64,000 nucleotides of DNA from Saccoglossus kowalevskii (Eukaryota; Hemichordata; Enteropneusta; Harrimaniidae). Below are positions 9,388 through 40,670 of this stretch, one piece after another. The position numbers were made by a program, and so were the translations under genes. Below the pieces are notes generated by a model. It was not told where the DNA came from. It worked only from the letters and a program-made list of their open reading frames with translations, and did not search any database. Where the stretch lies: contig NW_003135335.1 in the NCBI RefSeq assembly GCF_000003605.2, positions 76,007 to 140,006 of the forward strand, in the 5' to 3' direction. Every line of letters begins with the position of its first letter. The first letter of the stretch is position 1.

Positions 9388-11127
9388 CTATTGGAATGCT
9401 TGGTGGAACCTGGGTAGAGACTGGAGTGGTGTGGAGAAAGCTATCTGCGTCAGAGTAGCATTCTGTAACCGTTGTAAACCTCCGTCTGGACTTATCGGTT
9501 CACAGTCCTGGCTTATAGCCTGAGTTGAAAGCGTTAAGGTAGTGGGCGACATGCACGTTGTTTGGACCGGTATTGGCGGTGATGGTTGTGAGAGGGGCGG
9601 CGATGGCTGCTGAAGGGGAGGGGGTGACGGCTGCTGAAGTGTCGGCTGACCGGCATTAAGTGGCAAGAAACCCAACAACTGGCCGAGATCCACCGTGCTT
9701 GCATTGACAGGTTCCGTAATCACAGCAGGCCCCTTTGTATCATCCAAGTTGTTGGTCGTCTCCACAGACACTTCCAGCGCGACTTTAGGAGGTATAACAG
9801 GGGGTTTTACATCATAGATTTTAGTTGCAGCTTTAGTTGGAGGTCTGAGTTTGGTCTGCAGGGCATCAAAGGCGTTGATGCATTGTGTGGGATTAAGTGA
9901 GTTAATTGTATTAATAGTATTGATAGTGTCAATTGTGTTCATCGAGCTAGTAGAACAAATTGTATCTATGAAAGTTGTGTTAACAAAACTGTTTTGCATG
10001 GTACATGTAGGAGACTGTAAAAGCTTATTGAGCAGCTTTGGGGGAGGGGGAGGAGGTATCCTGATAGGAAGAGGTTGAAGTTGGAACTGTATTTGCTGAA
10101 GTTGTTGGGGGTGTGGTGGAGGAGGGTGTGACGGAGGAGGAGGAGGCGGTGGTGGTAGCGTTGTCTGTACTAACTGTGTGTCATTAGTACACGTTACAAC
10201 AGGCAGAAGGCTTTGTTGTAGGTTGATCGGTGTTAGTCGGTTTTTACCGGACTCTCCACTATGGCTTTTCCGACTGTGCCGAACTAAGTGATCTTTGCGT
10301 CCAAATCTTTGCCCGCATATCTGGCACAGGAAATCTTTCCTCCCGGTGTGCACAACGAGATGTCGTCTCACGTCTTTGCGAGTGTAAAAGCGCCGATCAC
10401 AGTGCTCACATTTGTGCTTCTTCTCCTTGACACCATTCGATTTACCAGAATGGACCTTGATGTGATTTAACAATATATCTGTACTCTCAAAATCTTTATT
10501 ACAAATCTTGCAAGTAAGGTCCCCAGCGGCGGCGGCGTGCAGCGCAATGTGTTTGCGAAAACCTGGTTTAGTGTTGTACACTTTGCCACATTCTTTGCAG
10601 TTGAATGATTCCTTATTAGGATCATGGGTATGCAGGTGGTTCTTGAGATGGTCTTTACGGTGAAATTTCTTGTCGCAGTAACTGCATGTATGTACTTTAA
10701 GGGGCGAATGTGTCGCCATGTGGCGCATCAGTTTATAATTAGAAACAAATGCCTTCTTACATTCTACATATGAACATTGAAATGGTCTTTCACCAGTATG
10801 GGTGTAAGTGTGTGTCTTCAGTTTCTCTGGATTCAGGAACACTTTGCCGCAAACTTCACAGCTGAACGTCTTCCTATCCGGCGTCAACCGTGAACTCTTA
10901 CCTTTGTTTTTCTTCAACTTTCGAACTTCTTTCTTTCGTTCCATTCGAAGCACCAACGAATTTCTGCCTCGCTTTAGTTTCCTTCCACGCCGCTTCGGCG
11001 GTTTCGAATCACAGACGTGCTCTTCTAAGAGTGCAAATGTACTGAATACGTGATTGCAGTTGGAGCACTTCCACGGATCTGAGCTGCCATTTGACGTTGT
11101 TGAATTTGTCTCCACACCGTTGAGGTT
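9388..11127 (-). CDS. PLAG1: PLAG1-like gene, last coding exon: seven-finger array and activation tail
   Basis: The acceptor is a pyrimidine-rich tract ending TTTGTGCAG at 11128-11136; translation enters in phase 0 with NLNGVE and stops at 9388. Seven zinc fingers begin with Cys at protein residues 309, 337, 367, 396, 425, 459 and 487. PLAG-specific signatures include [36 protein letters not shown], the AAAAGDLTC spacer, [19 protein letters not shown] and [19 protein letters not shown]. Downstream are two polyproline/glutamine tracts, a Thr/Asn-rich segment, [12 protein letters not shown] (similar to the DFSQLFNFIPLN region of PLAG1) and the terminal LPRFHQAFQ. Keeping the whole finger array and both ends of the tail on one exon matches vertebrate PLAG genes. 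There is no ATG between the acceptor and the isolated first finger; the first internal Met is residue 281. Confidence 0.97.
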
Positions 11128-14100
11128 CTGCACAAATCCAACATAAAAATCAAACTGAAAAGGTCAGTGAATATCTGAATCTTACACGAACAACAGATGG
11201 TGTTAGTCAAATGAAGTTAATCTACAGATGAAAAATTTGCAGAAAAAAATGTCTGTGAAACTGATTTTTCACAAAAGTAAAGCCAAATGGTGAAATTGAG
11301 TGAGTGTAAAACTAAACGGGTATTCAGAGATGATAAAAGTTTCAGAGTAACTTATGCATGACTGAAGGATATGGATAACTTTAAGAGACTATGACAAAGA
11401 ATTTTTTAAACATGCTTTTTTACATTTTTACTATAAATGACGCCCTCTAGTGACAAAGTGAAGTCTAAATGATGTATATGGTGAAAAGAAATATTGTTTA
11501 GAACAAACAACTGTTTGGTTGTGTAGATGTTCCTTCCTCGATAACAACCTTTATTGATGGACTACAGATTAAATTGATACTGTCACTAGAGGGCGAGATT
11601 TATTGGAAAGGTGTATTACATCCTTTCAATAAGGAGCACCTTCTTTGTTTAGTTATACAAACATTCTGTTTTTATAATACAGCCAAAAACGTATTTTTAA
11701 TGGGTGATTAAAATCAAAGCAGAGATGCGGTGAACATCCTTTGCACAGAAATATATTAAAGACGGGCACAACTTACAAAAATGGTGTACTACTTTGTTGA
11801 AAATCATGCTAAACTAATTTGAAGTCTACATAAAAAGTCTGGGCCAAATTATCATTTTAGTTGTTTTTACAGCACAAAGTCAAGAGATAATGAGCCATAG
11901 TTTATTTCCTTATAAAACAAACTTTTCTCCTGCACGAGGACTAGACCAAATATTTTCTATTGTAGTTCCTGTAACAGTACGCATATCGTAAATCACTAAA
12001 TCTCCAAGCGAGACAATGTCTGAAACTGTGTTGCTAGTAGCAACAGTGATTTATTACTATAACTATGAAATGAATCTGGTATGATGAAAACAGCTGCACA
12101 AACAGACATATAAGTAGACCTTCATATCAGCACTGAGCATTCTTTTAATGAAATATCACTTGGGACAATCCTGTAAGTGTGTTATATAATTTTAATGTAG
12201 CTATTTTTTTTTTATTCAAATACTTGTCCACTGAAACTCAATTACTATTATTTCAAGTTTGTTTAAAAATGAATTATCACAAGCCATGCACACATGCTCA
12301 TGTAGGTGACACAATACTGTATTTGCTCTACTAATAGCGTAGACACTTAAATAAAAGATAGAGGTGTGTCTATGATTATTGTAAAATATATTATTTTAGC
12401 TGGAATTAATTTTCGCTGAGAACACTTTTTGGGTGTTTTGCATGGAATTTATTTTCACAGATTTTTGATGAGTTGAATGTAAAGTATAGGAAAAAAAGGT
12501 AAAATTAGTTGCAAGCAAAAATAAAGGTGTTTACACTAAATAGACCCAGAATACAACAAATGTTATTTTTGTTTTATATGTGTGCTTTTAACTGAGCAAA
12601 TACAGTATTCTTCCTCACAAGATCAACCAAGTCTTAGCATTCCTATAGTATGAGGGCGCCAATATTTGATCATGAACATAGATTCATGACATACTGCCCT
12701 CTAGTGTTGATCACAAAAACTACACATGAAAGAGCACTATCTGTAGGTGGCCACAAAAACGCACTATAGACGCTCAAAATGTTGTCAGATCACTCTCCAA
12801 AGCATGAAGTAACTGCTATGGATGTCGATGGGATAACAAGATGATATAGGAATGTATCAGACTTCATGACACTTGTAAGGGGTACTTGTGAAACAAGAAA
12901 CTAACCTCTTTTATTTCCTTTGGAAGTGACAGTGTTGGCAGTGTTGTTAACGTAGTAACCGGTGGAAGCGGAAGAGGAGGTGGAGGAGGAGGGGGAGGAG
13001 ATGGTAATATTGACACTGGTTCTACAATTATATCACCTGTAATGGAAAAACCACATCATTAGTACATACATACAAGACGCATGTACCTGACTACCCTGAC
13101 AGTAGGCGTCATTTCATGGAAGTAAATTTTGTGTATAAGATTGTTTGCTGGTATTTATGATTGCTCATGAAAACTCAAATCAAGTTTACAATGTGCCGGC
13201 TGTAACTTATTTAGAATGAAATTTCACCCAAGTTACTGTGACTCCCTAGGACCCGAGTGAAAGTCACTGTGACTCCCTAGGACCCTAGTGAAAGTCACTG
13301 TGACTCCCTAGGACCCCAGCAAAAGTCACTCACAGCCATAATGAATCTAACAACATTTTCCCCATAACATAATTTACTATATTACAAGGCGATTGTCAAC
13401 TCCTATTTTAGCATTTTAGCATCAGAACTAGAAGTAAATTTTACATCTTTCTATTATGCTGTTAAGAACATATACTCTGTCAATGTTTCTTAAATAGCTT
13501 GCGATTTTACAAACCAAAGTTCATTTGAGAGGAATGAAAGAAATTCCAGCAGTGGTATCACAACATATCAAAACATTTCCTGAACAGAACCACAACATTG
13601 ACCAGTATAGTTGAAACAGTCATCACCACTAATCACAACAAAAGTTTGAGTTAAAAACAGCTCAGTGGTCAGGTTTTATTGACCTGCACTACATGACTGG
13701 ATATAATCAACAGGATCTGTTTCCAAACTCACTGTAGCAAACAACCCAACTGCTGCTTCAGTCATTCACGCTGCTCAAATGACTTAGTTTTTAAGTTTGT
13801 GTTTTTGATTGTTTTTAGTTGGAGCCTGTAATTGAATTTTTATTTTGGGTTTTCAGTGTCAGTTTACAGTTAGCGTAAATGAGTGATGTGTCTACAGTTA
13901 AAATAAGTTATCGGAATATTTGAAAGAATTTTAACTCAATACATGCCTTTATGAGAACAAATATAGTACATACACAGCACATAAAAAATCTTTCACCCAA
14001 ACATGACAGTCAATAGGGTGCAGGGACAAAAATGGCTGTCAGAAAACCATATTGAGATAAATCAACATTGATACAACACTGAACACAATGTAGTCTTTGG

Positions 14101-17100
14101 AAGATATATATCACAAGAAACATTTCCAAACAATTGGGTCACACAGATAGACGAACAGAACCAAATCTCACTTTTAGCACTGTAAAATCTGTATTAGAAG
14201 CCGTGGCTTCTATTAAAATGGTACAATGCAACAGAGGGGATGCGGCTACCATTAGAGTATCTACACATATGCAAAACAATGAATTTTTGATTCTCAATTG
14301 TTTAAAAAGAATAGGTACGACTTCTATTAGGTATGCGGCTTCTAATACAGATTTTATGGTATGTCTTGTTTATGGTTTAACAAAGTCAGTCAAATTAGAG
14401 TTGTTCAGGATTTATGCTTAGTAATCATTGCAACACATTGTTTGAATTAAATATAAGAACTGAATGCCAAGTCATCCCACAGAGCAGCTCTGGATACATA
14501 TCAGTAAAGTAGGCAATACATTTCATGCCACAACAATAAGGTCAGTCTTATTGGCAACACATTGTGCTTACCAAAGAGAGCCAGTAAAACGTATGAAGTC
14601 TTTTGGTAATGCATGCAAGACTGACAGTCTCATTTTAACAACCTTTTATTATTCACAGTTACACTGTAACCTCAATATAATGAACACCTTTATAATGAAT
14701 TTCTTGATATAATGAACACATAGCATGTCTCCCGCTCACAACAAACCCAATGTAGTACCGTTAAAGTCCTATTATAAACCGCGGTTTAAATTACAATGTA
14801 TCAATTTAAAAATTGGGATCAAAAGCTCAAGTTCGGGGTGCAGTTTCTATTACGTACATAAATGCAATCACTAAATGGGCGTGGTCATTTTTTGTCCACA
14901 ACACATGAACAAAACAAACAATACACCGTACAATCTCTTGAATAGGTGTCGGGGAAGAGTGAAAGGCCTTATTTTGGTTCTAAANNNNNNNNNNNNNNNN
15001 NNNNNNNNNNNNNNNNNNNNNNNNNNNNNNNNNNNNNNNNNNNNNNNNNNNNNNNNNNNNNNNNNNNNNNNNNNNNNNNNNNNNNNNNNNNNNNNNNNNN
15101 NNNNNNNNNNNNNNNNNNNNNNNNNNNNNNNNNNNNNNNNNNNNNNNNNNNNNNNNNNNNNNNNNNNNNNNNNNNNNNNNNNNNNNNNNNNNNNNNNNNN
15201 NNNNNNNNNNNNNNNNNNNNNNNNNNNNNNNNNNNNNNNNNNNNNNNNNNNNNNNNNNNNNNNNNNNNNNNNNNNNNNNNNNNNNNNNNNNNNNNNNNNN
15301 NNNNNNNNNNNNNNNNNNNNNNNNNNNNNNNNNNNNNNNNNNNNNNNNNNNNNNNNNNNNNNNNNNNNNNNNNNNNNNNNNNNNNNNNNNNNNNNNNNNN
15401 NNNNNNNNNNNNNNNNNNNNNNNNNNNNNNNNNNNNNNNNNNNNNNNNNNNNNNNNNNNNNNNNNNNNNNNNNNNNNNNNNNNNNNNNNNNNNNNNNNNN
15501 NNNNNNNNNNNNNNNNNNNNNNNNNNNNNNNNNNNNNNNNNNNNNNNNNNNNNNNNNNNNNNNNNNNNNNNNNNNNNNNNNNNNNNNNNNNNNNNNNNNN
15601 NNNNNNNNNNNNNNNNNNNNNNNNNNNNNNNNNNNNNNNNNNNNNNNNNNNNNNNNNNNNNNNNNNNNNNNNNNNNNNNNNNNNNNNNNNNNNNNNNNNN
15701 NNNNNNNNNNNNNNNNNNNTTGGGGGTGCGGTTAGTAATAGGTACTTTTCAAGTTTTCAATTTTTGTTAAGAACTCTTCAACCCTGAAGCCGGAATTGGG
15801 GGTGCGGTTACTATTACGTATGCGGTTTATATTAGGACTTTAACAGTATGTGCTTCATTATAGTGAACATTTCACTATAACAAACTAATTGTATGTCCCC
15901 CCCCAAAGAGTTTGTTATAACGAGGCTACAGAAGTGAATTTTTGGATTCGCCTCGATCAATATATTGAGAGAATTTGTTGCAGAAATGAGATCGTGGATT
16001 CTTGTCAATGTAAACAGTGGAAATTTGAAATCTCGCCCCCCAAATTGGTGAACATTTATATTCTTGGTAATGATGCAATTTGCATCGGTGAAAATATTAA
16101 AATTGACGTCGGTGAGAATAATATCAAGTCTTGTCAAACTGCAAAAAAGTGTCTGTTTCTTGCTCTAGTCTCGTACTTTTTACCAATAATGTATGTACAT
16201 ACATCTTTATTTTTAGTATGCGCCTTGCATATCTCAGGCTGCAATGTGAGATCATATCAGGCAAAACTAAATAGTTTGGAAAGACAACCACACTGAATTA
16301 TGAATTACAATAACTGTTTTGACTGAGAGTTTGTGACGATGCATTTTGTCGGGGCGAGATGCAAATCATAGGTGTGTTTGTTAATTGAGTTAAATTGTCT
16401 AGTTAGACATGAAAATGTTTTCTATAATAATTATTCCATTTGCATTATTTCTGTGCAGCAATAGCTTTGATGTTTAGTTTAGATTATTCGTATTTCTATT
16501 ATATCAAACAAATTGTATTTGACCTATGACGTTATTACCGCGATCAGTGATTGGTTTAGAACCGATCTATCACAACTTGAGTTTTGTGTCATGTGACACT
16601 TGAGGTCCTCGCACCATTGTTATCATTATTATTTTTACGTTTTGTTGTTGTTTCAAGCCGATGTCGATGTTTCCATTTCAAAGTTCAATCATTTCAAAAT
16701 GTCAATCCTGACCTATAGTATACAGTGGCTATACTTCGAGCCAAATCACAGCCACACATTTTGCTGTGAAAGTCACTGTAATTCTTAAGAACCCACACTG
16801 AAAGTAAAGCCTTTTTAATTTATATTGAATAGTGTTGATTTGTTAAAAAGCACAAAAATACCAGTGGTTCAGTGTTCTTAAATGAGTGTTTATTTTTGTT
16901 TGAACTGGTACCGTATTTATCCGGGTATAAGCCCAGGGTCTTGAACATGGAAAATTGCCCAAAAGAAGGGGTGGGCGTTTGCTAGGAGATCCCCGGCAAA
17001 AAAAAAGAAAATTCTTGAAAATTGACAACACGCAGTTCGATCGAACTGCGGCAGGGAATAGAACGGCAAATGAAAACATGCAACGGAAATAAATGAACAA

Positions 17101-20100
17101 TATGCAACACTAGAAATAGAACAAAAATAATGTATTGTTTATAATGTGACAAATAAACCAGAAATAATAAAAATACACAGTGAGGAATCATTTGAATTCG
17201 GATTTTCCCGCCGACAAACACGCGTGAACTCAAAATGAATTAAAATGTCAGGGGTTAAACTGCGTGAAATGCTTTCCGGTCTCGACAAATTACGCATCAA
17301 CCGTCATACAAGATCAATAATAATTTACAAATTTACACAGTAAAAATTATAAAAATTCATAGCTATTTGAAAAAAAACTTCTCAGATCTTTATTTGTACG
17401 TTCATTGCCATCTTCGTCAAACTCAAAACCCTCAAAGTCAAAGTCGGCGTCACTGTAGCCGTCGAACAAAATCCCTACAACTTATTCCTGAAGTTCGTCG
17501 ATATCGTCCCACACAATTTGGACTTAGCACTTTTAATCCACGGATTTTGCAGTCTGTCAGCTTGGCACTTTTCTTTCATGTCTAATCATAACAAGCTCAA
17601 TAAGATAGCTCCGCTGTAGCAATGCACATTTCAATTAAAGAACTGAGGACATCATTAGAAATGAACAATATGAATAGTATCAAAGCAATCGGACTTACAG
17701 TTTTTAACAAGAAGTCGAAAATATCACTTTTTACCAAAAATTACAAAAATATTCACCAAAATAAATTAATTAGAGAATTGAAGATATCATCACAAAATGG
17801 ACAAATCTGAGAGAGGTCCACATGTAGTACCTATATATGTAATATCAAAGCAATCGAACTTGCAGTTTTTAACAAGAAGTCGAAAATATCACTTTTTACC
17901 AAAAATATTCACCAAAATTAGAGAACTGAAGATATCATCACAAAATGAGCAAATCTGAGAAAGGTCTACATGTAGTATCTATATATGTAGTATCAAAGCA
18001 ATTGCACTTGCGGTTTTTAACAAGAAGTCGAAAATATCACTTTTTACCAAAAATGACAAAAATATTCACCAAAATTAGAGAATTAAAGATATCATTACAA
18101 AATGAACAAATCTGAGAGAGGTCCACATGTAGTACCTATATATGTAATATCAAAGCAATTGCACTTGCGGTTTTTAACAAGAAGTCGAAAATATCACTTT
18201 TTACCAAAAATTACAAAAATATTCACCAAAATTAGAGAATTGAAGATATCAACATGAAATGAACAAACCTAAGAGAGGTCTACCCAAGGTACATATACAC
18301 CAAGTATCAAAGCATTCAGGCTTGTAGTTTTCAAGAAGAAGTCGAAAAAGTAAAACATTGACACGGACGACGACGGACAATCACTCATATGATAAGCTCC
18401 GCTCGACAAAGTCGACAGCGGAGCTAATAAAGAGACAAGAAAAATGGAGTCGCTCTGCTGCGATGGCACACGAAGCTTTTGTTTACAGTCTAGCAATCAT
18501 CTTTGACCTTTATGCATCTGCTTTACTGATTGGCTAAGAATGACATCACTAGTAGTATTTCATCATAAAGGTCAAATCGTGACATTGCTTTTTTATCAGA
18601 CTCGACGCTTATTAATCATGGTGAAAGTTATCATTCAGCAAGTTCCGGCGGTAGGAATGTCTCACTATATGGATATCGCGGTGAACTTGAAATAGGAAGT
18701 TTTTTTTTTATCCAACGACAGAAGAATGTTTTTATGACGGTGATGAAAGATGGTAAAAAAGTTGGCAGGCAAACATTGCAAAATTGCTGACCCCAGTTAT
18801 TAATTCGCAAGCTGCTACAAAATATTTTATAAAGCCAAAATAACGTGATTTCAACCACTCTCCCAGGTACGGGTTGCTACAATATTGCAACATTGGTTTC
18901 ATTGTCGACGGCGCTAAAGCCGAACGAGTGCGACACTTGTGGCTCTCCTTATACGATTTGCCTGAATCGTTTCTAAGGAAGCACAACCCAAACGGCCAGC
19001 CATTTTTAGGGCCACGACATATTTCAAAAAGAGAACTACCGTTTCTGCTTTAATATATATTTTTATAAACTTGCTGACTGTTAGATTCAGAACGCGCTGC
19101 CCTGAAGGCAGAAAGCTGTCACAGCTATTTTGCGTTCACCCCTTGTTTTACGCAATTAACAATATTTATAAGTATCACGACAGTCTTCAAGAAAGCCAAC
19201 TGTTAGTGTTAGTGTTAATACAACCACAGTCAACGAATAGAAAATAGTTTTTTTTTTTTTTTGTGTAGAAAAAGACCCCTTGACCTCAACTCCTTTATTG
19301 TGTCAAAAGTGGGGGGTGGGCCTTTGCCCAGGCATGGGCTCTTACCCGGATAAGTACGGTAACTACCCAAAAGCATGCAGGATATGCAATTCCAAAAGTG
19401 ACAAAATGTTGTAAAAGTTGTGAAAATGTGCCTCGTGAAAAATTGAAGCAATATTAAATCCATCAACCAAGTCATTGTATGGTCGAATTACAGGAGAGCT
19501 CAAGCATAACTTTACTTTCCAAGGTGGCTCTAAGCTATTCTACAAAAAAATACAATTTCTAGAGTGTGTATTGTCGTGTGTATTTTAGCAAGCAAAGTTT
19601 TTAAGCTAGCTATAATTTAAGCTATGGTCAAATTACACTGCTTACCAAGAGGAAAGCTGTGCTGAAGGAGGATGTATGACTGGAGTTAATACTTACAGCA
19701 AGATTTGTCCAGTGTATCTATACACATGTATCTAGAGTACTCAGTTGCATACCAGACTTTCAATTCGCAGTGTGGAGGGATAGGCTACAGAAGAAAACAA
19801 ACACCAGTTGGTTAGTGTTGTTAGAACACACACAGACCAATAATACCAAAATCTGACAGAAAATCTCTGCAACAAACAAGCTGATTAAATAATTTAGTAC
19901 AATAAGCCAACTTTTATAGCTATTTCACTAGAAGCCCTATGACCTCATATCTCATTCCAAAAGTTTATCACAAGGCTCAAAGTTCAATGACCAAACAAAA
20001 TAGAGCACATGTCAACGTGGATATGTTTTGATTATTGTTGCACCTACCTTAATTGTTGTAAAGTAAATGTCATTTTTATGTTGATAAGCTACAACATTCT

Positions 20101-23100
20101 GGTCTTCAAAACTGGAAGCTGGTCTGACAAACATCATCCAGTTACAAGAAGATTCACTGGAAGTGTCTAGTATTAATGGTTCCATACCATTCTGGAAGAT
20201 CTGTTAAAAAAATGACAACAATGAGAGTCAGTCATCAGTCATGGCAGTAAACTATTTTTTGTTAACAAGACTGATGCCCTCGTACCCGTACTAGGGGGGG
20301 GGGGGGTGTCACATCACATCAATGCTGGGGCATGGTCCGAAGAAACAATTTATTGACGCAACCAGCAAGACTGATGGCCTGGCAGGGTTAGACAAGATAA
20401 CTGACCAATTTGGGTACTCTTCTTGGTGCCAGATCACACTGACATCTATTTTTCGAAGATTGCGATAATTCAAAAATCGAAATCCTTGACTCTGAATTTA
20501 TTAGATTTCTTAAATCAATATTTGTCTAAGTTAAGATCACAGACATATAACTGGAATTGATTTATAATAAGAATGCAAATAACAAATCCAAGACAAACTC
20601 TTCTTATTTTAATAACTTGCAAACAAACTGTGGAGAGTTCAGAAATATAGGATGAAGGCAATGCCAGAAATGGTTGTTCATAACATCTTGTCGCAAACAA
20701 ATGACCAGTCATGTTCTCCTATACTACAATTTTTAAAACACGTGTACCCCGCTACCTTGAACTCACATGATATAGTAGCATTTCATTGATAATTTTCGTA
20801 AAGTTTTTCCAGTTCATAGAACACCAAATGACATATCCATTCTAAATATAACACAATATAATGTGTACTATGATACAGTTCCTTGTTACGAGGTCAATGC
20901 ATTAATAGGCAAAAAAAATTTTGTATGAATGAGAATATTCATTATTTTTTCTACATTTGTTTAAATAACACACTACAAGTTCTTTCAATTGAAATTCAGG
21001 TCATTTAAATATAGAAAATTATTTTCGAACGTGTTTTCTTATGTTGTTTGCTCGTAACATTTCACACACAAATGAAATACAAGCAAGTCTGATGACCCCT
21101 GCACGCCACTTCATAATTTTTACATTTATTAAAATATTTTTCCATTATTTAAGTAAACATCCTCTGCCTTAAATGGAATCTGTTATTGTATAAATAAAGG
21201 TAATAACAATTGTTTAGATTTCAAAAAAGCACATACATGTACAACCAATTAAGGTAATAATGTAATCTCACACTGAAAGAAAAGTAAATTACACTGTATT
21301 TCTCTACCATGCATGTACAACTATGCCATGCAGTATGTACGAGTCCAAAGATTCTCGCAACTGATTATAAAATGAGATGTACGTCTGTAGGCATGGAAAA
21401 TAATTACATGCTGAGTATTCCTGAAACGCATTTTACCAGCGATCTAGACATCTCCTTAATGGACAAAACCACTTGACAACCATTACTGATTTTTAGCATT
21501 ATTCCAATAAGTACTGATTTAATCATTACTTTTCTGTCAAGGCCACAGACTCCCCTCTGAATGTATTTGAGTACTGTATTCATTATGTTGGTATAGAACC
21601 CAGAAAAGATACAACTATCAGGTATTATTATCCAATCAGTGCTTGATTGCCTCTCACTGCAGGGATGCTGCCACAAGTCTTTTATAAAAAAAAACAAAAA
21701 AAAAAAAACACAGGTCTTACCTTGAATTGCAACTTAGTGTTGTCATATCTCCTTTCGTATTTCGCTATCCTCGGCGCTAAGAAGGGACCAAATTGGGTCC
21801 TTTTCTGAATTAATTTCCTGGCATAAATACCTAAAACTAAAACAGAATAGAAGTTATCAGAGAAAAGGAAAGTTACCCGCTATGATTGATCCTAGAGGCA
21901 TGAACAATAATACCCAAGTTGCTCTTATTAGTAGCGCATGAGCTTTATGTAAAGTGTGTGTTTTATTTCATATTTTAAAATGTGATTTTTGGTATACATG
22001 CGCTTCTATTGGAGCTGCTCTTCTAATAGAGGAAATACAGTATGATCTTTAATATTAGGCTTTACATTTTAAAAGTTAGTTTGTTAAATAATCCATGTTT
22101 GATCTGCTTATCAAAAGTCTGAGATCTGAGCAACTACTTGATTGATCTCAAAGTATTCTACACTGAAATGATCCAATCATAACCATTATCTTGGTGACTC
22201 CAATGAGCCAAAAGAAATACAACCAGAAATACAACAAAAGAAAGAACCACTTAATGCATTCATGTCTTACAACGCCATGCAAATGTTGACATTCCCAAGT
22301 GGACCCAGAATCGGTTTTCTAGCTTATAGGAGAATGAATGCTGTAAATCGCCAGGGCTTTGCATATATTGATAATTCAAGGATATATAAAAATATTTTAT
22401 ACAGGTCATTTCCTGTCAAAATGTCCTGATTCGTTCCTCAACTCGTGAAAATTAGTCTCTCATGAAATTAAATCAGTACAAAACGTTCTCATTTTTACTA
22501 ACTGAATTTTAAAATAATCATTTATCAACTTAAAATGACAGTCACCAAGTAATCATGTTGTGTTCATGTACCATGTGACCAACAACAAACTTGATGCGGT
22601 AATAATATGGACAAAATGGAGATATCATCCTCTTCCGCCAAGGGTACTCAACTCTAAAAATTATGTGTTTTTTTTTGGGGGGGGCGCTTAGTCGAACAAC
22701 CCTTTTGAAAGAACATACAAATAATAATTTTAGTTCATCATAGGCCAGATTAAGAAAATTATTAACCAATCAGAATACTGTTTGTATCAACATTATTCCC
22801 TGGGAATTCTTCAAGGCGCAAACACTACTCATACATGTATGAGTTTAATTTTCGCTGCTAGAATATTTTTGTGAATTCACGTTTTTAAAGCTTTCATGAA
22901 AGCAAAAATATGTGGCAATCACTGACACCAAAGACTGTTTGACCCTATAGAAATTTACACTGAGTGGGCATTACAAAATTTTGTGATATTTCTTCTGCAA
23001 AATTATAGCAGTTTACAGTAATCTTTCATTGCCTACAGGTCAGTTTCACAATTTTGTGAAAGGTGTTATGCAACGTTTGACATTCAATGAATAAAAATAC

Positions 23101-25072
23101 CTTCCAGTGGTATTTATATATAGCACATTGACTATTAAGATTAATTCTAAATTTGGATACCCCATTAAGTGAATAGCAAAGGATCTGCAACATTAATTGG
23201 TAAATGATATTGTCAACCTATCATACAATAAGCATTCTGGTATAATTTTTTTCAGTGTAAAATACTGTAAAATGCCTAAAAGACTGTACAATTTCACATT
23301 TTCATGATTTTTCCAAGTCAGTGATAATCGTGAAATTTTGTAGCATTGTAGCAGTTGTATGACACAGGGTGTCAGCGACTTTTGCAAAAATTTCTAATTA
23401 CGAACACCATAAAATCGTCAAATCAAGAAAATTTCTTTCAGTGAAAAATAATCAAATAAAGAGAGTAAATAACAGCACAAGGAATTACATTTTCATATTG
23501 AATGTCTTTAATGTCTAATGTATACATACAGCTGCAAGTGAAAATGTAAAATGAAACTATACCGCAAGGAAATCTAATACAATGCCTTCTGGGTAATAAT
23601 GAATGTGAAAAGATACTCGTTTAAATAATTCAAAGAAACCAAAATTTCAATCAAGTAACATTCAACATGCTGATTTGTTTTCAACATACATGTTCAACAA
23701 TCAACACCTTGGAGCTAAATGTTAAAGATTCAAAGGTCAAATGTCAAGGGTCATCATCATCATCATCATCAAAAGGTTTGTATTATCTATTACGCATGAT
23801 CGATATTCATCATTTTTTTTCTGTGTGTTTATCCACAGAAGTTGATGTACAATCAAAAGGAACACCACTCATGAAAAAAACTGCCTGTTCCTTTGTTGTG
23901 GTTAAAATGATATACATTTATTTTCACATTTCATTATTGATCATCAAAAATCCTGTACCATTATTCCAAATCACAAAGTGAATGTTTTTTTATGAAAATG
24001 ATGACTACCCGGTAACAATTATACTGTATCAACATCTGATTTTAATCCAATGTGAGTTAGCGAGATGATAATTCAGCAATATGGATTTATAGTTGAAAAT
24101 TCAGTTATTTAGAACGATTCTACATAGGTAAAATACCAATGCAACTACCATTTAAAGAAATATTGTAACATAAAAATTGAAGATAGATATTACAACAACA
24201 AAATCTGCATATGTTGTTTATATGTAAACATTCAATAACTGACTTGGATAGGCACACATGCTGGCAAGCATAGGGCCAACTCATTGTAGATATTTATTAT
24301 CCGCAGAAAAAAAATCTAGTTCTGCAGTTGAGTTTAAGCATTTATACAAGACATCATTTGATTGGTTCAAAGAACCTATTGATCAAATAAGCTGCTTTCT
24401 GATTGGATTGACTGTAAGGTGTTTGGTTGTGTGGCCAATCATACACCAGGTTAATCTCTCTTTTTTCAACTGTAGGTTAAAATTAATTTGAACCTTGCAT
24501 TTTGGTACACCGATGAGCACTGTACATTAAAATACCACTTTTTACCAAAAAGGACAAAAATATTCCTCAAAATCAGAGAATTAAAATTAAAGATATCATG
24601 ACGAAAAGAACAAATCTCAGAGAGGTCCACTCAAGGTACATATAAACCAAGTATCAAAGCAATAGGACTTGCGGTTTTCAAGAAAAAGTAAAAAATGTAA
24701 GAAGTTGAGACAGACGCAGGTCCATCAGTAATATGATTTGCTCTGCTCGACTTCGTCAAAAGTCAACAAGGGAGCTAATTATATGCTTGAGTATGTTTCA
24801 TATCAGTAACATAGATAAATGCTTTAAGGAATAAGTTGAAATTAACGAATGAGAACTCGCTTTAAAAATTATATGTTCTATGAAAAGGGAAAGCCAGCTT
24901 TATGTGTGCTTTTTATTGGAGATGCTCTTCTAATAGAGTAAATACTGTATACAGAAATAAGCTTTCGGGACAACGTAAGTGCTTCTTATATAGCAAATGT
25001 GGAATTTTTATTTTTGAGTACCGATAGGCTTCTAAAAGACAGGGAAATTATTTCCGCGTCAATAGCAGCAAA

Positions 25073-25120
<48 letters not shown>

Positions 25121-28100: not shown

Positions 28101-31100
28101 ACTGGATTTTATTTTCACTGAATCATCCCTTCACCGAAAACAAAGTATTTTACAGTATGCTCAAAACATCAAAATAGAGAAATTAAATGTTTGTGAAAAT
28201 AAATCATGATTTTACAGTGATCAGACATTTTGGACAGTGGTTCGATTGATAAAGAACCATTACCATAATTTAAGATTATAATAACTATTCACCAATTTTA
28301 TTTGTATTATATTTATTGATCCTATCCTATCCTAGCTTTCTGTTATTTTCAATCTATATGTACATTGTAATGTCATGATTCATTATACTTATGAATACGA
28401 ATTTGTACTTCTTGATCTTTGGTGACCCCTTGTGACCCAACACATGTAAGTATTCAAAAATTTACCTTGAAAACTATCAGGATCATGATTTGCATGGAAG
28501 TCACTTTAAACTCTCTGGGGGCTGGAACAAAACTTTCATTTTTAAGTGACCTTCTGAGTTCTGGGTACATGTTTTTAACCTTTTAATATCAGATCTAGTT
28601 TATATGGATTTACGTTGTATGAAAACAGGTTTATGGTAAGTTGGAAAATCTGACACAAAAGGATCAGGTGTTTGTCGTAACACTTGCTTCCAAGTGAATG
28701 ATGCTTCGATGTTGAATTCATCCATCCTGTATGCTTTTTAAAGAAAGAATGGAAATCTGCTGTGACTGTGATACAATTAATAATGTACCAAACAGGCGTG
28801 TATGCAATTGCTAAATTGATTTCATTTTAAAGATTTTATAATTTATTAAAATCTATGTTTTTCTTCAGCACAAATTTCGACAAGTCAGATCTCAACTTTA
28901 ACATTAAAAAAGATTTAGACTGCTATTGCTTTAGTATTTGAGAATTTTTCTACTAACTACTGGTAGACATAACTATCAACTACCTCAACCTCACAGTTAA
29001 ATAAGCAATATTCAATTTTATTTTTACAAAATCTAAATTATTCTCGAGGCGATTTTTCAAAACTGTCAATTATATTAGAGAAAAAAGTAGGATTCCAATA
29101 AAATTATGTGAATGTTTAACCTAAAGTGAATTTAATTCAATAATTGAAAAAGCTATTAATTATGTAACACTAGAATATTGTGACAGTTCCTGAAATGCGC
29201 ATGATAAAAAACTATGACAGCTTTGTGAATATTTTAGCGAGATAATAGCAGTCACGTTTCACTGTAACATCATGGGATGAAAAAGAGCCATTGTTGTAAT
29301 AAATACGTCACATCTCAAAATTTTAAATGTCAGTTCTTTGACTGGATCTATAAATTACGTAACATCTCAAGGACACGCGTAGTATTGATGTAGTTACAAT
29401 TTTCCCAAAAGAAATCATTGACTACTTGAAAGCTGTCTTCAAGCATGACATATCGGCAATTTGTTTCACACCTCTCCACAATTGCATTCATCATCACTGA
29501 ATGGAGGGATTCAAATCCACACGCTAGGAGTCGTAATTGCAACCACAGTTCACTATAGAACTGGCCAAAATGAGAAAATCAAACAATACGACGCTGCGTC
29601 AACAAAATAAAACGCATAGAAATTATACACGAGAAGCTGATATCCTTCATTTATATGACAAATGATCGTCAGCTCTTGTCAGAATACAGCGAGAAAAAAA
29701 AAATCAGGCCAGTATATACTCAGTTGAGAACACCAGAATAATGCGAACAATTTACAAAAATACTTTATATAATTTTAGAAATGCAACTCAGCTGATTAAA
29801 TTTAATATCAATAATGAAGCAGTGTGCACATGACCTTGACCACATGCAAGCTTTGATGCACATACATATATCTGCCTCTTGACAGCATATTTTTATTCGG
29901 AAGGTGATCATTCATAAACAATCAATAATTAAATCATCCAATAATTAATATTGTAATCTACTAGTATTTGCAAAGCGAGTAGATGCAGGAAGGATCTACA
30001 CATCTTGAAAAATTAAACATGAGAAAATATGAACTCATGGGCAGAGAAGACAATGTAGACATTTGACACAACTGAGCACACAGACAAGTCAAACACTGCA
30101 GTATGTATTGTGTTGGGGAAAACACAATGCAAATACGTAGACGTGCTTAGAAATATGATTTCCTTATAAGTACACGTATATGAAAATTAGGGTATAGTAA
30201 GAAAAAATATAATCTGTAATTCGAATTTGTAATGTCGGACTGAAAGTTGGTTAATGCTAATTTAGCAAAATGGAAGGAAAAAAAAAAGCAATAATACATT
30301 GTAATCGACTTTTATTTGGGGAGAAGGAATCCCAGGCGATATGGAACACAAGAACTGAAGTACAGTACATAGGAAAATGAATATAAAAAGGCTTTTTCAT
30401 ACTCACTTTGTTGATTGCCTGCTCTAAGTTCTATTTCTTTAAGTGCTAAGTAGTGTGGTATGGTAAGCCTGGCGTGGCTGGGTATAACTTTATCTTTTAC
30501 ACGAATCAGTGGACCATGTGTGGTACATTCTCCTGGGTGGCATTTTGCACAGTCCTCACACCCTGCAAGAAAAATAAATAAATAAATATAATTAAAAGTT
30601 CACATATAATATCTTGAATAATTTACGGGTATCTACGAAATGCCAGGGCTTTTCTTAAATAAATGATTTTTCCATTACTGACATTTGCATGTACTGGTAT
30701 AATATATTGTTGACCATAGCTGCTTTATTATAAGCGCATCTCTAATAAAGTGCACATAAACCACAACCCATAAATTTTACCTGTCATTTACCTATAGGGC
30801 ATGTGTTACAAATAAAACAAATACAGCTTGGGTAAATGACAGGTGTTTCTATGGTTAAATTAAATCAAGCATATATAATAAATCCAATTTTCAGTTTATA
30901 TATGCTTCTATTAGGAATGTGCTTTAAATAGAGCATATACGATAATAATTTATTTAAACAAAATTTCGGTTAAATTGTGCTAGTATTTACTTTGAATACT
31001 GTAGTTTTAAATAAGACAAAATAAAATAGATATTTTTTCCACTTCACATTTTAAACAGGAACATTTTATTTGACAGGCTAAATTTCTACAAACCTGTCCA

Positions 31101-34100: not shown

Positions 34101-37100
34101 CAATTCTTGTCCTAGGGTGACCATTTTACAAATGCAGCAGCTCAAATGGAGTATTAGAGATTTACAAAATAATTACATGTACACTTTGTTTTTACATTAA
34201 CCGGTATGTTTTTAAAGTCATGGGTATCCCACACAAACTAAGCAATGTGATACAGTGTTCTCCCCAAAGCGTTTTAGCGTAGCGGGGCCGCTACTCTATT
34301 ATTTATGCCGCTACTCTGAGAGATTGCCCGCTACTCTGAGAGATTGCCCGCTACTCTGTGGCATTTCCTGTTACTCTTTGTTTTAGCTTGTACATACACG
34401 TGCGAATCTGTGAGTCAGCGTCATCAGCGTCCGGTACTGTGAGCCAAATCAGGTGTGAATGGAAACATGTCAGTAATTACGCAAAGACAATGGACATCCG
34501 ACTAATACAGCTTCGTACTTCGACAATAAACACTTTCGCCCTATTTAATTGAGGTAATAGCGAGTATTTTCTCAGTAGCATATTCGGTTGGAAGAAGCAA
34601 CGATGTCAAACAGCAGAAATATTACGTCGTGGTTCCGCGTAGAACGCCCTGCTGGGCCCCTGGTTGCGAGCGATAAACCCACCAGCAACGCGGTCACCGG
34701 TACCCCTGTCGGCAGTGGTACAAGATGATGTTACAACGAAAGGTGCAAAAAAATAAACTCTGGATTTGATGCACAATGGACAACAAAATATACGTGGCTG
34801 AGAGAAACATCCGATGGCAAAGGTAAAAAAAGTATTTATTTGTAGTGTTTTACTTGGAAGCGTATTTTGACCTAGTTTAGTAAACTTTTGTATGGCTTCA
34901 TTTTTTGCCGATCGTCGAAACATTTTTTTGGAAACGACTTTCTTTCTGGAAGTTCAAAAATTGTTGGCTACGATTTATCAAATAACTACCGGTAATACCG
35001 GTACTAGTATTGTGTTTTGAAATAGTTAGGGTAAATTTTATCGTGGCAATTTTTTTAGTTTGGCGACTTTTCAAAATGGCGGCAATTTGTTTATTTTCGT
35101 GTTGATCGTGACAATGTTTTTTAAATACAAGTATTGATTCGCTCCTATTTCTTATCTTTTAGGATTGCTGTGTCACATATGTGGAAAATTCAACTTAAAA
35201 ACATCCAGAAATAGTTCTTTGGTATGGAATTGTATGCCATGTATAAATATTACGAAATATGCTATAGATAAACACGCACACTCGGAGATGCACAAGAAGG
35301 CCATGTCATTAGAAGTGGGAAGCAAAGAAAATCACGGCGTTCTCAAAAGCTGCAGACCACTGGGCTTCCATGAAAGTCCGAAGAATCAACATTACATAGA
35401 AATCACACAGCAGCAGATTCATTTAATCTTCTACATAATTTTGTTAAAAAATAAAGACACAATTTCATCCATGCAAGCCTTCATTATTGTTTTCTTTATC
35501 TCCAGACATATGCTAATGGTATGTAAATTATATGCAAATTAGCCGCCACTCTGATACATTTTTCTGGGGAGAACACTGTGATATCTATTTTATTTGTGTT
35601 TTTTTGCAAGACTTTTAGCTTCTACTAATCTGATGCAGTACCCACCATGAAACTACAGACTTTTTAAAATTTATAGACCACAATACTTTCAAGAAGTTTA
35701 AGTTTATTTTGAGCCCTGGTGATTCATGATGATGTACATCAATACCATCCTAAGAAGAAATAAATGTAATGTGAAAACAGAATTATTCACTTGGTTCAAT
35801 ATTAGCAGATTTACTATGCTGGTTTGTGAAGGGTAGTCATATTCACTGGGATTTAATTTGGAACATTCAACCAAAGACAATAGAGAATCTCATTCCATTG
35901 TCTTCAACAATCAGCAATTATCAGTAGGTGACAATAAAACCTAACTAATAATTGTACGTTTTGTATTACTATTAGGTTAAGTGGAATGAGTAAGATTTGA
36001 TCAACGATTTAAAAAAAAAAAGACTATTTCACAATAAATTTACTTAAGAAGAATTGAAAATATAATCTTCTTTATGTTTTCATCATCCTGGGTTGATGCT
36101 ATCAGGATACCGAAAATGGAAAAAAAAATATTTAAATTTATTGTTTTCAACTCTTATGAGACAAATGGCAATTTATAAATGAATGAAAATTCAACAAAAC
36201 AAATTTATATTAAATATTTGACACTAAATTATTTTATAACAGGCATTTCATGAACATGCATTTAAAGACACTATCTCCATTATAAAGGGAACAAAACAGT
36301 TCCTATCTTAAGTTCCACATGAATGGGTACATTATGTAATCGTCTCATACAATGTACTTTCGAAACTGACCCACATATTTGTTCTCTAGTAAGAGCACTG
36401 CTTATAATATTACAGTCAGAAACTATACAGCAAATGATATCCCACAATGCAATCTCAGGAATTGATTTCTAGTTCTACAAAATAAAATTGTTGTCCCTAG
36501 TAATCATAGTTACTATGGTAGTACATATTCCGGCCTTGGGGTACAGACACAAATAAAAACTAGGGCTTCAATCTACTGATAACAAATTTACAAAATAAAT
36601 ATTCAGGATAAAACGAATTACTGAGTATCAACAAAAGCCATTTCATACTGCCATTATTAGACATTCACAACTTGCACATTAATATATTATTTCCAAGGAC
36701 GAAGCACAGAAGGTAGATAATGTAGTAAGACCGGTTTAGATTAATGTAATGTTTATCTCAAAGGGAACATGCTATATTACTTTGTACTTGTACAAATCAT
36801 TAAAGTCATGTGTCTGTAATGTTTAGAAAGCTGTTTCAACTTTTAAATTTGTGATATTTGAGGTAAAGTCTGTTTTTTCACACTAATAGATTATTTTCCG
36901 TTCTGCAAGACCGCGTTATGCTCGATAATGATTGTAAAAAAAGGACAAACAAAGGTCATAGCGTTGTAGTGGCATCTAGCATCGCATGGGATTTGACAAA
37001 CGCATAGGTATTTTGGTGGATACATTGTATTTTCATGCTTAATAATGTACTGTACACATTTGATGATGGTCAATTTCGATGAAGTAAGGATATTTAAACG

Positions 37101-38280
37101 CAACATTCCCCTGTCAAAAATCGGTCTTTTGGTGTGAGCTATGAAATAAAGAAATTTAAGATCAAAATCAAATCGTTTGATTTTTGCGACTGACGTTCAG
37201 CGCGCATCTTTTACGCGAGATCTTACAGTTGAACAGAGAATCATCTATCATAACACATCAGTTAATAACTGTGCAACTCCTAGAATTAATTTTATAGCTA
37301 GAATCCCTTTTTATGTGATATGAAAACATGTAAACATATCGGTGTTTCATCACAAACTCACAACCTTTCACTGATTTACAAAACAAATAATCCAAATGAG
37401 AACAATCAACTGGATGTTGTAAAAAAAAAAAAATCATTAATAGAACAGAACAGCTGTACACAGGGAGGCAGGAAATGGTTTTACTGAAATGCAAGCTGGT
37501 TCAAACATACTCAAAGACCATCTGTCTTGAATCAAGGAATACCAAGGTCAAACTTAGTAAGACACTCACTCACTCTTTCATTCATGAAGGATAAGTGAGA
37601 AGCTGATAACCATAATCAGAAGAAAATATCATGGCAAAAATAACAAACAAGTGGTGTTCCACATGTTTCTCAAACAAGTTCTTGTGCACCAGTGGTACAT
37701 CTGCTATGCAAATTGTATGGGTGATTATAAGTACCTCAAAATTAGTCTGAATTTTTGTTATATCATCAATGAAGAAAATAAAAAAGACATCCCAAGTGAC
37801 AACTAAAGACAGACTTTTATCTCCATGTACAAAAGTTTCTGCCAGTCCCTAACTAGAAATGAGCACACTTGAGATAACAAGTTTTAAGTTTAGCGAGTAT
37901 TGATTCAGCTTAGACAAATCCTACTGTAATAACAACATCTGGTTTGCAGTACATACACTATGGATGGATGAATATTTTCAGAAATTAGCCAGATGACAAC
38001 TCAAGATGAATATATTATTTATTAATCCATTCTAGCAAAGGGTATATGGTTCTAACAATGAATGATTTTTTTGGAGAGGTTGAATTACTTTTTGACACTC
38101 ACCAGTTTACAAATCTGAAAGAATTGAGGTCACAGGTCTCACCAACTTGGCTCAATTTATACATACGTTTACTATGTAATGTGTAAATATACAATTAAAT
38201 GTAATGTGTAAATCACAATTATATTGACAGTATTAAAATTGCACTCATGCAGTGTACTTACAAAGAAGGTCTTTGGACAT
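9388..38280 (-). CDS. PLAG1: PR/SET-domain PLAG1-like zinc-finger transcription factor (7 coding exons)
   Basis: Join, in transcript order: 38280-38262, 30562-30407, 21830-21721, 20200-20048, 19784-19697, 13036-12906, 11127-9388. This gives 2397 nt and 798 residues; every junction is GT-AG and in phase. Seen in the product: a zinc knuckle at residues 7-24 ([16 protein letters not shown]); a PR/SET domain at about 28-160 with [18 protein letters not shown] (115-123) and ELKVWYA (153-159); a polyproline linker (about 186-200); an isolated Cys-rich finger (240-258); a basic stretch (262-297); seven zinc fingers (309-508); a proline/glutamine-rich tail; and the terminus LPRFHQAFQ. The seven fingers and the terminus are those of PLAG1/PLAGL2, nuclear activators that bind GC-rich cluster-plus-core sites and drive growth genes such as IGF2. 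The PR domain resembles PRDM10/PRDM4 as I remember them. It lacks the NHxC motif of active SET enzymes, so methyltransferase activity is doubtful. The neighbour CHCHD7 supports PLAG1 orthology. The fusion is inferred from splicing signals and phase, not from a transcript. Confidence 0.9.
11441..11595. mobile_element. Candidate MITE with CTCF-like termini
   Basis: A 15-base perfect inverted repeat, CGCCCTCTAGTGACA at the left and TGTCACTAGAGGGCG at the right, brackets about 125 bases in the intron just upstream of the zinc-finger exon. CACTAGAGGGCG also matches the CTCF core. The same word occurs once more at 12695-12706. No clear target duplication. Confidence 0.45.
12378..12500. mobile_element. 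MITE, TACTGTAAAATACT family, 3'-truncated copy
   Basis: Matches the left two thirds of the 1290 copy (TTTTAGCTGGAATTAATTTT, GATTTTTGATGAGTTGAATG, AAAGTATAGGAAAAA). The right terminal repeat is not recognisable. Confidence 0.6.
12906..13036 (-). CDS. PLAG1: PR-PLAG gene exon 6: proline-rich linker
   Basis: Only one frame is open, reading DIIVEPV, a run of eight prolines, then LPLPPVTT and LSLPKEIKE. The acceptor is TTCCATTACAG and the donor GAG|GTTAGT. It begins with two bases of a split Cys codon and ends in phase 0, matching both neighbouring exons. The linker has no domain of its own. It is the piece that joins the PR half to the PLAG half, so it is the key exon to confirm in a transcript. 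Confidence 0.85.
13231..13328. repeat. Three-copy 31-bp tandem repeat
   Basis: Unit AGTCACTGTGACTCCCTAGG followed by ACCC.AGTGAA, three copies plus a partial. Each unit holds the inverted repeat AGTCACTGTGACT and the palindrome CCTAGG. Located in the intron 0.2 kb upstream of exon 6 of the PR-PLAG gene. Confidence 0.85.
14758..15846. mobile_element. TA-flanked inverted-repeat element containing an assembly gap
   Basis: Left end CCGTTAAAGTCCTATTATAA, right end inverted CTGTTAAAGTCCTAATATAA, both then ACCGC; TA on each flank (14756-14757, 15847-15848). Consistent with a Tc1/mariner-type insertion. The interior is mostly N (14985-15719), so coding content is unknown. It has inserted into an older repeat with TATAATGAACAC phrases. 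Confidence 0.75.
14985..15719. other. Assembly gap (735 N)
   Basis: Run of N inside the inverted-repeat element. Any open frame crossing it is artificial. Confidence 1.
16911..19359. mobile_element. Decayed Tigger/pogo-like transposon with nested array
   Basis: Ends CCGTATTTATCCGGGTATAA and, inverted, CCGTACTTATCCGGGTAAGA, flanked by TA; the next bases on both sides spell GCCCA.GG...GGGTGGGC. On the minus strand at about 17400-17545 there are traces of an acidic tail ([10 protein letters not shown]...[10 protein letters not shown]), as at the C-terminus of Tigger transposases. The rest of the transposase is not readable. A gctccgct-type element (17606-18426) is inserted inside. Confidence 0.6.
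17606..18426. mobile_element. TAGCTCCGC element, copy 1, with internal 155-bp tandem units
   Basis: Begins TAGCTCCGCTGT and ends ACAGCGGAGCTA. Inside are about five tandem units of about 155 bases, each with CAAAGCAAT, TTTTTAACAAGAAGTCGAAA, ATATCACTTTTTACCAAAAA, ATATTCACCAAAATTAGAGA and GATATCAT. The 3' end folds: AAGCTCCGCTCGAC, AAA, then GTCGACAGCGGAGCT. Non-coding. Confidence 0.85.
19697..19784 (-). CDS. PLAG1: PR-PLAG gene exon 5: C-terminal end of PR/SET domain
   Basis: Reads [20 protein letters not shown] and on to DKSC. The motif ELKVWYA..Y is the last conserved strand of PRDM PR domains. The acceptor is TTTTCTTCTGTAG and the donor T|GTAAGT. It leaves in phase 1, completed by the first two bases of the next exon to give Cys176. 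Confidence 0.92.
20048..20200 (-). CDS. PLAG1: PR-PLAG gene exon 4: core of PR/SET domain
   Basis: Encodes 51 codons, starting IFQNG and containing [22 protein letters not shown] and DIYFTTIK. The NWM.FVRPA and QN.VAYQ motifs are diagnostic of PRDM PR domains. In enzymatically active SET domains this position carries NHxC, which is absent here. The acceptor is TTTTTTTAACAG and the donor AAG|GTAGGT; both ends are phase 0. Confidence 0.95.
21721..21830 (-). CDS. PLAG1: PR-PLAG gene exon 3: N-terminal strands of PR/SET domain
   Basis: Reads [20 protein letters not shown] and on to NTKLQFK. The G/S-x-x-A-x-x-x-I-x-x-x-T-x-F-G-P pattern is the first conserved block of PR domains (compare the GVWA...IPKGTRFGP type). 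The acceptor is TTTTAGTTTTAG and the donor AAG|GTAAGA. It enters with two bases completing Ser59 and exits in phase 0. Confidence 0.93.
23749..23772. repeat. (TCA)n microsatellite
   Basis: About seven TCA units, intronic. Confidence 0.9.
24529..24777. mobile_element. TAGCTCCGC element, 5'-truncated copy
   Basis: One internal unit (CACTTTTTACCAAAAAGGAC, GATATCATGACGAAA) and a degenerate terminal hairpin ending GGGAGCTAATT. Left end missing. Confidence 0.7.
25074..25118. repeat. (CA)n microsatellite
   Basis: About 22 perfect CA units in the intron between exons 2 and 3 of the PR-PLAG gene. Confidence 0.98.
26770..27436. mobile_element. TAGCTCCGC element, copy 2
   Basis: Starts TAGCTCCGCTGTTAGCAATG and ends GACAGCGGAGCTA with the same terminal hairpin as copy 1. 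Contains about four 155-bp internal units. The array length differs from copy 1, showing unit gain or loss. Confidence 0.85.
27978..28157. mobile_element. MITE, TACTGTAAAATACT family, copy 3
   Basis: Left end CAGTACTTTATTTTAGCTGG, right end AAAGTATTTTACAGTA, with the same body words as copy 1. Same orientation as copy 1. Confidence 0.7.
30407..30562 (-). CDS. PLAG1: PR-PLAG gene exon 2: zinc knuckle before the PR domain
   Basis: Reads [20 protein letters not shown], then [11 protein letters not shown] and LRAGNQQ. A C-x2-C...GEC..HGP knuckle directly before the PR domain is typical of several PRDM proteins. The acceptor is TTTTTCTTGCAG and the donor A|GTGAGT. It starts with GG, completing a TGG Trp codon from the upstream exon, and ends with one base of Ser59. 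Confidence 0.92.
34253..35578 (+). mobile_element. hAT-like transposon remnant with 5-bp target duplication
   Basis: Ends CAGTGTTCTCCCCA and TGGGGAGAACACTG. TGATA abuts both ends (34248-34252 and 35579-35583), a 5-bp duplication. Inside, plus strand, is a start-like segment ([20 protein letters not shown], from 34602), then [20 protein letters not shown], and after a TTTTAG acceptor [10 protein letters not shown]...[14 protein letters not shown]. That is the BED/TTF-type zinc finger found at the N-terminus of many hAT transposases and their ZNF862-like relatives. The catalytic region is absent, so the element is non-autonomous. The multi-copy GCCGCTACTC phrase near the left end occurs three to four times. 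Confidence 0.75.
36884..37252. mobile_element. Inverted-repeat element (TAATAG..ATTTTCCG), copy 1
   Basis: Shares about 370 bases with 48969-49340, including GGACAAACAAAGGTCATAGC, TTCATGCTTAATAATGT and CAAATCGTTTGATTTTTGCG. Ends are TAATAGATTATTTTCCG and an inverted, weaker TATGATAGATGATTCTCTG. Confidence 0.75.
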
Positions 38281-38307
38281 TATGGTGCAGTGGCTACAGT
38301 GGAATAA
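38262..38307 (-). CDS. PLAG1: PR-PLAG gene exon with start codon
   Basis: The coding part is 38280-38262, MSKDLL plus the T of a split Trp; 38307-38281 is 5' UTR. The donor T|GTAAGT fits the phase of exon 2, and the joined product reads LLWCEDC, where Trp before the knuckle is what PRDM proteins usually show. The likely acceptor is CCTGTGCAG at 38308-38316. A second AG lies 12 bases further in. The start was chosen because it is the only ATG in frame and in the right phase. The exon is small, so it is supported mainly by its fit to exon 2. Confidence 0.75.
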
Positions 38308-40553: not shown

Positions 40554-40670
40554 ATGTCGTACGAGGGATCTGACGGACCGCCTGAATCCGGGATACCAAA
40601 TAGAAAGGCAAGGGGACCAAACAAAAAAGCCAAAAGACTGTTGGATGAAGAGAACAATCCCTGTCTTTCG
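40554..40670 (+). CDS. CHCHD7: CHCHD7 exon 1
   Basis: MSYEGSDGPP through a lysine/arginine-rich stretch to ENNPCLS, donor TCG|GTATGT. It holds the first Cys of the first CX9C pair. No in-frame ATG lies upstream before a stop. Phase 0 exit. Confidence 0.9.

Follow-up and report, generated by a model that had tools for sequence, protein, structure and literature searches.

The sole PLAG gene found in the Saccoglossus kowalevskii assembly appears to carry a PR/SET domain

PLAG1 influences growth and stature, and also acts as an oncogene when activated through promoter swapping. The vertebrate PLAG proteins are not known to possess a PR domain, a zinc knuckle or an isolated finger. In mammals, CHCHD7 and PLAG1 are described as lying head-to-head approximately 500 bp apart (PMC9405559), and in cattle the two genes are reported to share a bidirectional promoter (PMC5359603). 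For the PRDM genes, an early metazoan survey gives seven putative orthologs in the sea urchin, and the word PLAG is absent from its main text (PMC2082429). Among the journal papers listed by literature searches, judged by titles and abstract openings, none was recognised as describing a PR domain combined with PLAG fingers; PMC7535936 and PMC7854572 likewise offered nothing relevant.

The window analysed here is a stretch of 64,000 nucleotides from the hemichordate Saccoglossus kowalevskii. Its minus strand holds a gene of seven exons (38317 to 9388), in which the in-frame combination of a PR/SET domain and PLAG fingers is well supported as a gene model drawn from the sequence. The sole PLAG gene found in this genome thus appears to carry a PR/SET chromatin domain. 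The explanation considered best, and judged probable, is that one gene at the ancestral PLAG locus encodes a PRDM15-type PR domain, a basic linker and the seven PLAG fingers. The features of the locus are as follows.

38262..38317, minus strand: exon 1, with its ATG at 38280, encoding MSKDLL and the first base of a Trp codon; donor gtaagt, and an acceptor cag before 38317
30407..30562, minus strand: exon 2, a zinc-knuckle-like CxxC..C..HGP segment (PF18445, E 0.0089, below the cut-off) and the start of the PR region
21721..21830, minus strand: exon 3, PR domain with an RTQFGPF motif
20048..20200, minus strand: exon 4, core of the PR domain (...YFTTIK)
19697..19784, minus strand: exon 5, end of the PR domain
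14985..15719, no strand: assembly gap (N) of 735 bases inside intron 5, between the PR exons and exon 6
12906..13036, minus strand: exon 6, a proline-rich adaptor from phase 1 to phase 0, required for the in-frame join
9388..11127, minus strand: exon 7, a degenerate isolated finger, basic linker, seven PLAG fingers, proline-rich C-terminal part and LPRFHQAFQ tail; stop at 9390-9388
11011..11073, minus strand: isolated degenerate C2H-type finger of exon 7, from reading of the sequence
10873..11010, minus strand: basic linker between the isolated finger and the array, from reading of the sequence
10252..10872, minus strand: seven PLAG zinc fingers, from motif scan, genome search and identity
40554..40670, plus strand: CHCHD7-like exon 1, start codon at 40554; head-to-head neighbour
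45730..45828, plus strand: CHCHD7-like exon 2, with a CHCH motif (weak match, E 1.5e-4, 22.2 bits against a cut-off of 27.2)
47855..47959, plus strand: CHCHD7-like exon 3, stop at 47957-47959

As originally predicted, the seven exons lie on the minus strand with matching phases: every internal exon boundary is AG/GT and the intron phases are 1,1,0,0,1,0. The coding part of exon 1 is 38280-38262, exons 2 to 7 are coding over the whole of their listed intervals, and exons 2-7 when joined form an open frame up to the stop at 9388. All splicing was deduced from the sequence, with exon 1 read by eye. The splice sites had been described as consensus, which holds for the internal AG/GT ends but less well for the exon 1 donor (0.0) and the exon 7 acceptor (0.4), both of which are weak under a rough splice score whose weights are approximate consensus values. 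The exon 1 donor is in phase 1, and TGG (Trp) is restored when exon 1 is joined to exon 2; a provisional human PRDM15 sequence, used for comparison throughout, has a Trp at the same place. Identity is weakest for exon 1 among the coding exons. A possible non-coding first exon ends at 40015, approximately 540 bases from the CHCHD7 start codon.

The join between the PR exons and the finger exon hinges on exon 6, a short proline-rich exon without homology support. Exon 6 is needed because the end of exon 5 (phase 1) does not fit the start of exon 7 (phase 0); if exon 5 is joined straight to exon 7, the junction codon is a stop. Exon 6 tops the three phase-correct exons available between exons 5 and 7, scoring 8.2 against 4.9 and 2.8 (rough splice score, thresholds 0). 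A stricter ranking with thresholds of 3 left 11 acceptors and two donors and admitted no exons; exon 6, whose donor scores 3.0, was also excluded. The PR frame would thus end at the junction whenever exon 6 is skipped, and exon 7 holds an in-frame Met after the isolated finger and before the PLAG fingers. Both observations would suit two overlapping genes, an upstream PR-only gene and an ordinary PLAG gene starting at or near exon 7, with no functional joint message. This arrangement is nonetheless considered unlikely. The phases agree at all six joins, and the PR exons are downstream of the promoter region on the CHCHD7 side. Upstream of the Met, the isolated finger and linker are open in frame and would go unused. 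Furthermore, besides the seven PLAG fingers, a six-frame scan for C2H2 motifs returned three matches, all of them outside the interval from exon 5 to exon 7 (where the 735 N are unreadable), so no array was seen there that could serve a separate PRDM gene.

Elsewhere in the window, a single C2H2-like motif occurs in a 134-residue open frame at 35138-35542 (plus strand), opposite to the PR-PLAG gene and within the intron between exons 1 and 2; it may belong to a transposon or a small gene. Diverged repeat units of approximately 150 bases, with reading frames that repeat one theme, are found at 17604-18257 and 27097-27282 (both plus strand) and look like a dispersed repeat family.

The assembly gap in intron 5 and the CHCHD7 neighbour are both additions to the original prediction. 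As the gap separates exon 5 from exon 6, a misassembly across it could have placed the 5' end of a PRDM15 gene beside a PLAG gene. Inverted arms of 27 bases, 93% complementary, flank the N gap at 14756-14782 and 15822-15848 and look like one repeat element; the near-complementary arms on both sides lend modest support to the join across the gap. CHCHD7 and the PLAG fingers, which form an adjacent pair in mammals, are on opposite sides of the gap, CHCHD7 being on the side of the PR exons, and the isolated finger and basic linker are on the PLAG side. Misassembly is therefore regarded as very improbable.

The plus-strand gene of three exons at 40554-47959, which is taken to be CHCHD7-like, stands head-to-head upstream of the PR exons. 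A CHCHD7 query against the genome gave four matches, three of which are its own exons and the fourth of which has an E of 0.45. This position indicates that the PR exons are inside the PLAG locus, with the expected promoter on one side and the finger exon on the other. Fusion by simple translocation is disfavoured, because such a fusion would have parted CHCHD7 from the gene. The arrangement also suggests that the head-to-head pair of PLAG1 and CHCHD7, known from mammals, is older than vertebrates. Beyond the right end of the window, an exon on the same strand as CHCHD7 (L042:1849-2214, flanks partly N) presumably resembles the carbamoyl-phosphate synthase part of CAD, a gene that is not known to lie beside PLAG1. 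To the left of the window are a cysteine-rich exon (L039:4423-4788), which we take to be TNF-receptor-like, and a further fragment (L040:1130-1933), presumably of a LINE reverse transcriptase.

The PR/SET domain is present as predicted, with a match to the Pfam profile PF21549 (E 5.3e-35, 120.3 bits against a cut-off of 27) that is not due to chance. The zinc knuckle is less firm: a knuckle-like segment does precede the PR domain, but its match to PF18445 reaches 16.3 bits against a cut-off of 25.8. The nearest PDB chains to the PR domain are PRDM4 (3db5, 2.7e-24) and PRDM10 (5e-24). When the domain is aligned with PRDM9, one of the three catalytic tyrosines is kept (357), while 276 and 341 face Phe. 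PRDM15 is described as keeping only Y357, with a single transfer predicted, and is treated as a possible methyltransferase (PMC9861158). Because one of the three tyrosines is kept in the pattern reported for PRDM15, a binding role seems likelier for this PR domain than strong enzyme activity; weak or mono-methylation may still occur.

Exon 7 carries the seven PLAG fingers and the LPRFHQAFQ tail, both as predicted; the tail is a PLAG family feature. The fingers, identified by the motif scan, are 72% identical over 208 positions to those of human PLAG1 (provisional sequence), and the array is 31% identical to the provisional PRDM15 array and likewise 31% to the array of a PRDM10-like gene on another contig (C304). 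A second PLAG-type array was not found in the genome, where the window scored 478.4 bits and the next place 104.1 (231 matches; best 150 of 500 candidates scored). An isolated finger had been predicted after the PR domain and is there, though not intact; it reads C-x2-C-x12-H without a fourth ligand at the usual distance, and is degenerate. The isolated finger was also considered as proof of kinship with PRDM10/15 and rejected, since it is not distinctive by itself: with this query the isolated finger of PRDM10 scores 43 and ranks joint seventh of 186, the query itself being first. A genome search with the isolated finger and linker returned the query itself only (one candidate scored). Wider scans gave no relatives in genome contigs (0 of 64 candidates) and one viral contig locus among 24 candidates, a 34-residue match at 44% confined to a single finger, which is no sign of PLAG; it was rejected as a relative.

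The genome searched is an assembly of 572 Mb in 4830 contigs, partly gaps. A PR family search, in which all 36 candidates were scored, found 14 exon matches at 10 loci, one of them in the window. The nine other loci are putatively PRDM1 (C126), PRDM10 (C304), two PRDM14 (C2734 and C3463), two PRDM9/11-like (C647), PRDM8/13-like (C3862), MECOM/PRDM16-like (C2733) and PRDM4-like (C1838). The last name, given for its fingers, is unsure, as its PR domain is not grouped with human PRDM4 in the tree. The two putative PRDM14-like loci (L002 and L004), being on different contigs, may be duplicate genes or separate haplotypes, and the two putative PRDM9/11-like loci (L006 and L008) are approximately 130 kb apart on their contig. 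In addition, the mitochondrial contig (C4830, L009) has COX1 on the strand opposite to ND1 and COX2, which is either an unusual order or a feature of the assembly. TGA reads as Trp in this contig, and in the parts of COX1, COX2 and ND1 covered, ATA occurs at expected Ile positions of other animals, AAA at expected Lys positions and one of only two AGA codons at an expected Ser position. An echinoderm origin was rejected on these grounds, the pattern fitting a hemichordate code.

The original prediction had suggested that the N-terminal half comes from a PRDM10-like gene, and had proposed a phylogeny of the PR domain against PRDM10, PRDM4 and PRDM15. The kind of gene was well chosen. The PRDM10-like gene on C304 has the same layout: after its PR exons, a single exon holds isolated finger, basic linker and array together. 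Within the PR domain, the two introns that were compared match between the genes in both place and phase. This is supportive only, because such introns also occur in other PRDM genes here. A genome search with the window PR domain gave C304 (44%) and then C126 (37%) as the closest places outside the window (12 matches; 13 of 13 candidates scored). PRDM10 itself did not hold up as the source. In a tree of 12 rows, in which the PRDM15 row is the provisional human sequence and two of nine inner branches are starred, the window PR domain pairs with PRDM15 at 87/80 on a branch that is not starred. C304 pairs with human PRDM10 at 96/95, and these four form a clade at 92/91. By identity, the provisional PRDM15 is about equally close to the window PR domain (46% over 160 positions) and to the two PRDM10 rows (48% over 103 and 45% over 145). 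By the tree, the window PR domain is probably nearer to PRDM15 (provisional sequence) than to PRDM10 (87/80). PRDM10 was rejected as the N-terminal source, as a separate PRDM10-like gene exists at C304 and groups with human PRDM10 and not with the window.

The closeness to PRDM15 agrees with a gain in this lineage, in which PR exons, isolated finger and linker, together the 5' half of a PRDM15 gene, came by insertion to lie between PLAG promoter and fingers, the remainder of PRDM15 being lost. A separate PRDM15 gene would indeed seem to be missing from this genome, given the gaps, the stretches outside the search, the provisional query and the 88 of 336 array candidates scored. No other PRDM15-type PR domain was found with the window PR query (12 matches). 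The provisional PRDM15 array found generic fingers (best 113.7 bits; 219 matches), with none among the matches listed within its first 214 of 482 residues. A bivalve is listed with eleven PRDM genes, including a PRDM15 of 20 fingers and none with 8 fingers (PMC10451705); as a 20-finger PRDM15 is on that list, PRDM15 is probably older than the PR-PLAG gene. However, such a gain requires that one junction of the insertion fell within a coding exon and that CHCHD7 kept its place, the similarity of the isolated finger alone is weak, the PRDM15 queries are provisional, and the assembly is partly gaps. The lineage gain is accordingly given somewhat less than an even chance.

The converse is that PLAG is a PRDM10/15-type gene by descent, and that vertebrates lost the PR exons and kept the CHCHD7-side promoter and the finger exon. 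The retention of CHCHD7 head-to-head fits this history and disfavours a simple translocation fusion, and the exon layout equals that of the PRDM10-like gene on C304. Finger 7 (RKDFLC..CG..F.RKD) is closest to a PRDM10 finger, scoring 72, where the best of 144 background fingers reaches 64. However, the best PRDM10 finger is equalled or exceeded by 1, 34, 4, 10, 6 and 62 of these background fingers for PLAG fingers 1 to 6, respectively, and a search with fingers 6-7 ranks C304 30th of 165 matches (best 150 of 971 candidates scored). Ancestral presence is also at odds with the bivalve list, and the missing separate PRDM15 in this genome would need a second loss. This history can be held only tentatively. 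In its strongest form, the vertebrate PLAG family would be a headless PRDM gene, which dropped an ancestral PRDM10/15-type PR domain downstream of the promoter shared with CHCHD7 while this genome keeps the original form; we hold this to be possible, though doubtful. Overall, the balance leans slightly to a PRDM15-like 5' half inserted in this lineage, but ancestral presence followed by loss in vertebrates is almost equally likely. As a separate candidate, an origin of the PLAG array in that of PRDM10 was rejected, with only finger 7 of the seven standing out.

In the proposed working of the single PR-PLAG gene, its message would arise from a promoter region common to CHCHD7, assuming transcription as one message and promoter sharing. 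The seven fingers would bring the protein to PLAG-type GC-rich sites, as expected from family knowledge and the high finger identity, and the PR domain would serve chiefly to bind proteins, recruiting chromatin cofactors to these sites. The activation of growth genes by the PLAG part would thereby be coupled to chromatin control. Omission of exon 6 is predicted to yield a PR-only product that lacks the fingers, and translation from the first Met of exon 7 could produce a PLAG protein of vertebrate type that lacks the PR domain. The balance of full, PR-only and PLAG-only forms may therefore be a switch.

A PLAG gene that bears a PR/SET domain would be a direct evolutionary link of PLAG to the PRDM10/15 chromatin regulators, and the origin of the PLAG family becomes testable in public invertebrate genomes. 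It also predicts cofactors on which PLAG proteins may still rely, or for which they may have needed replacements, and hints that vertebrate PLAG genes either lost a PR domain or never received one. If the headless PRDM reading is true, the original form has a chromatin module regulating a growth-promoting factor within one protein.

In comparison with known systems, PRDM4 offers the nearest solved PR domain (3db5, 2.7e-24), but its finger array differs. PRDM10 resembles the window gene in its exon order (PR exons, then a single exon for isolated finger, linker and array) and in the same two PR introns, but is unlike it in its other array fingers and its Q-rich end, features that are present at the separate C304 gene. 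PRDM15 has the nearest PR domain (46%, provisional human sequence) and the same pattern of one tyrosine in three, and an isolated finger with a basic linker follows the PR domain in PRDM15 as in the window gene. PRDM15 differs in its long array, listed as 20 fingers in the bivalve (PMC10451705), whereas the PLAG array has seven. PLAG1, PLAGL1 and PLAGL2 resemble the window gene in their seven C2H2 fingers (72% to the provisional human PLAG1), in the LPRFHQAFQ tail and, at the PLAG1 locus, in the head-to-head placement of CHCHD7.
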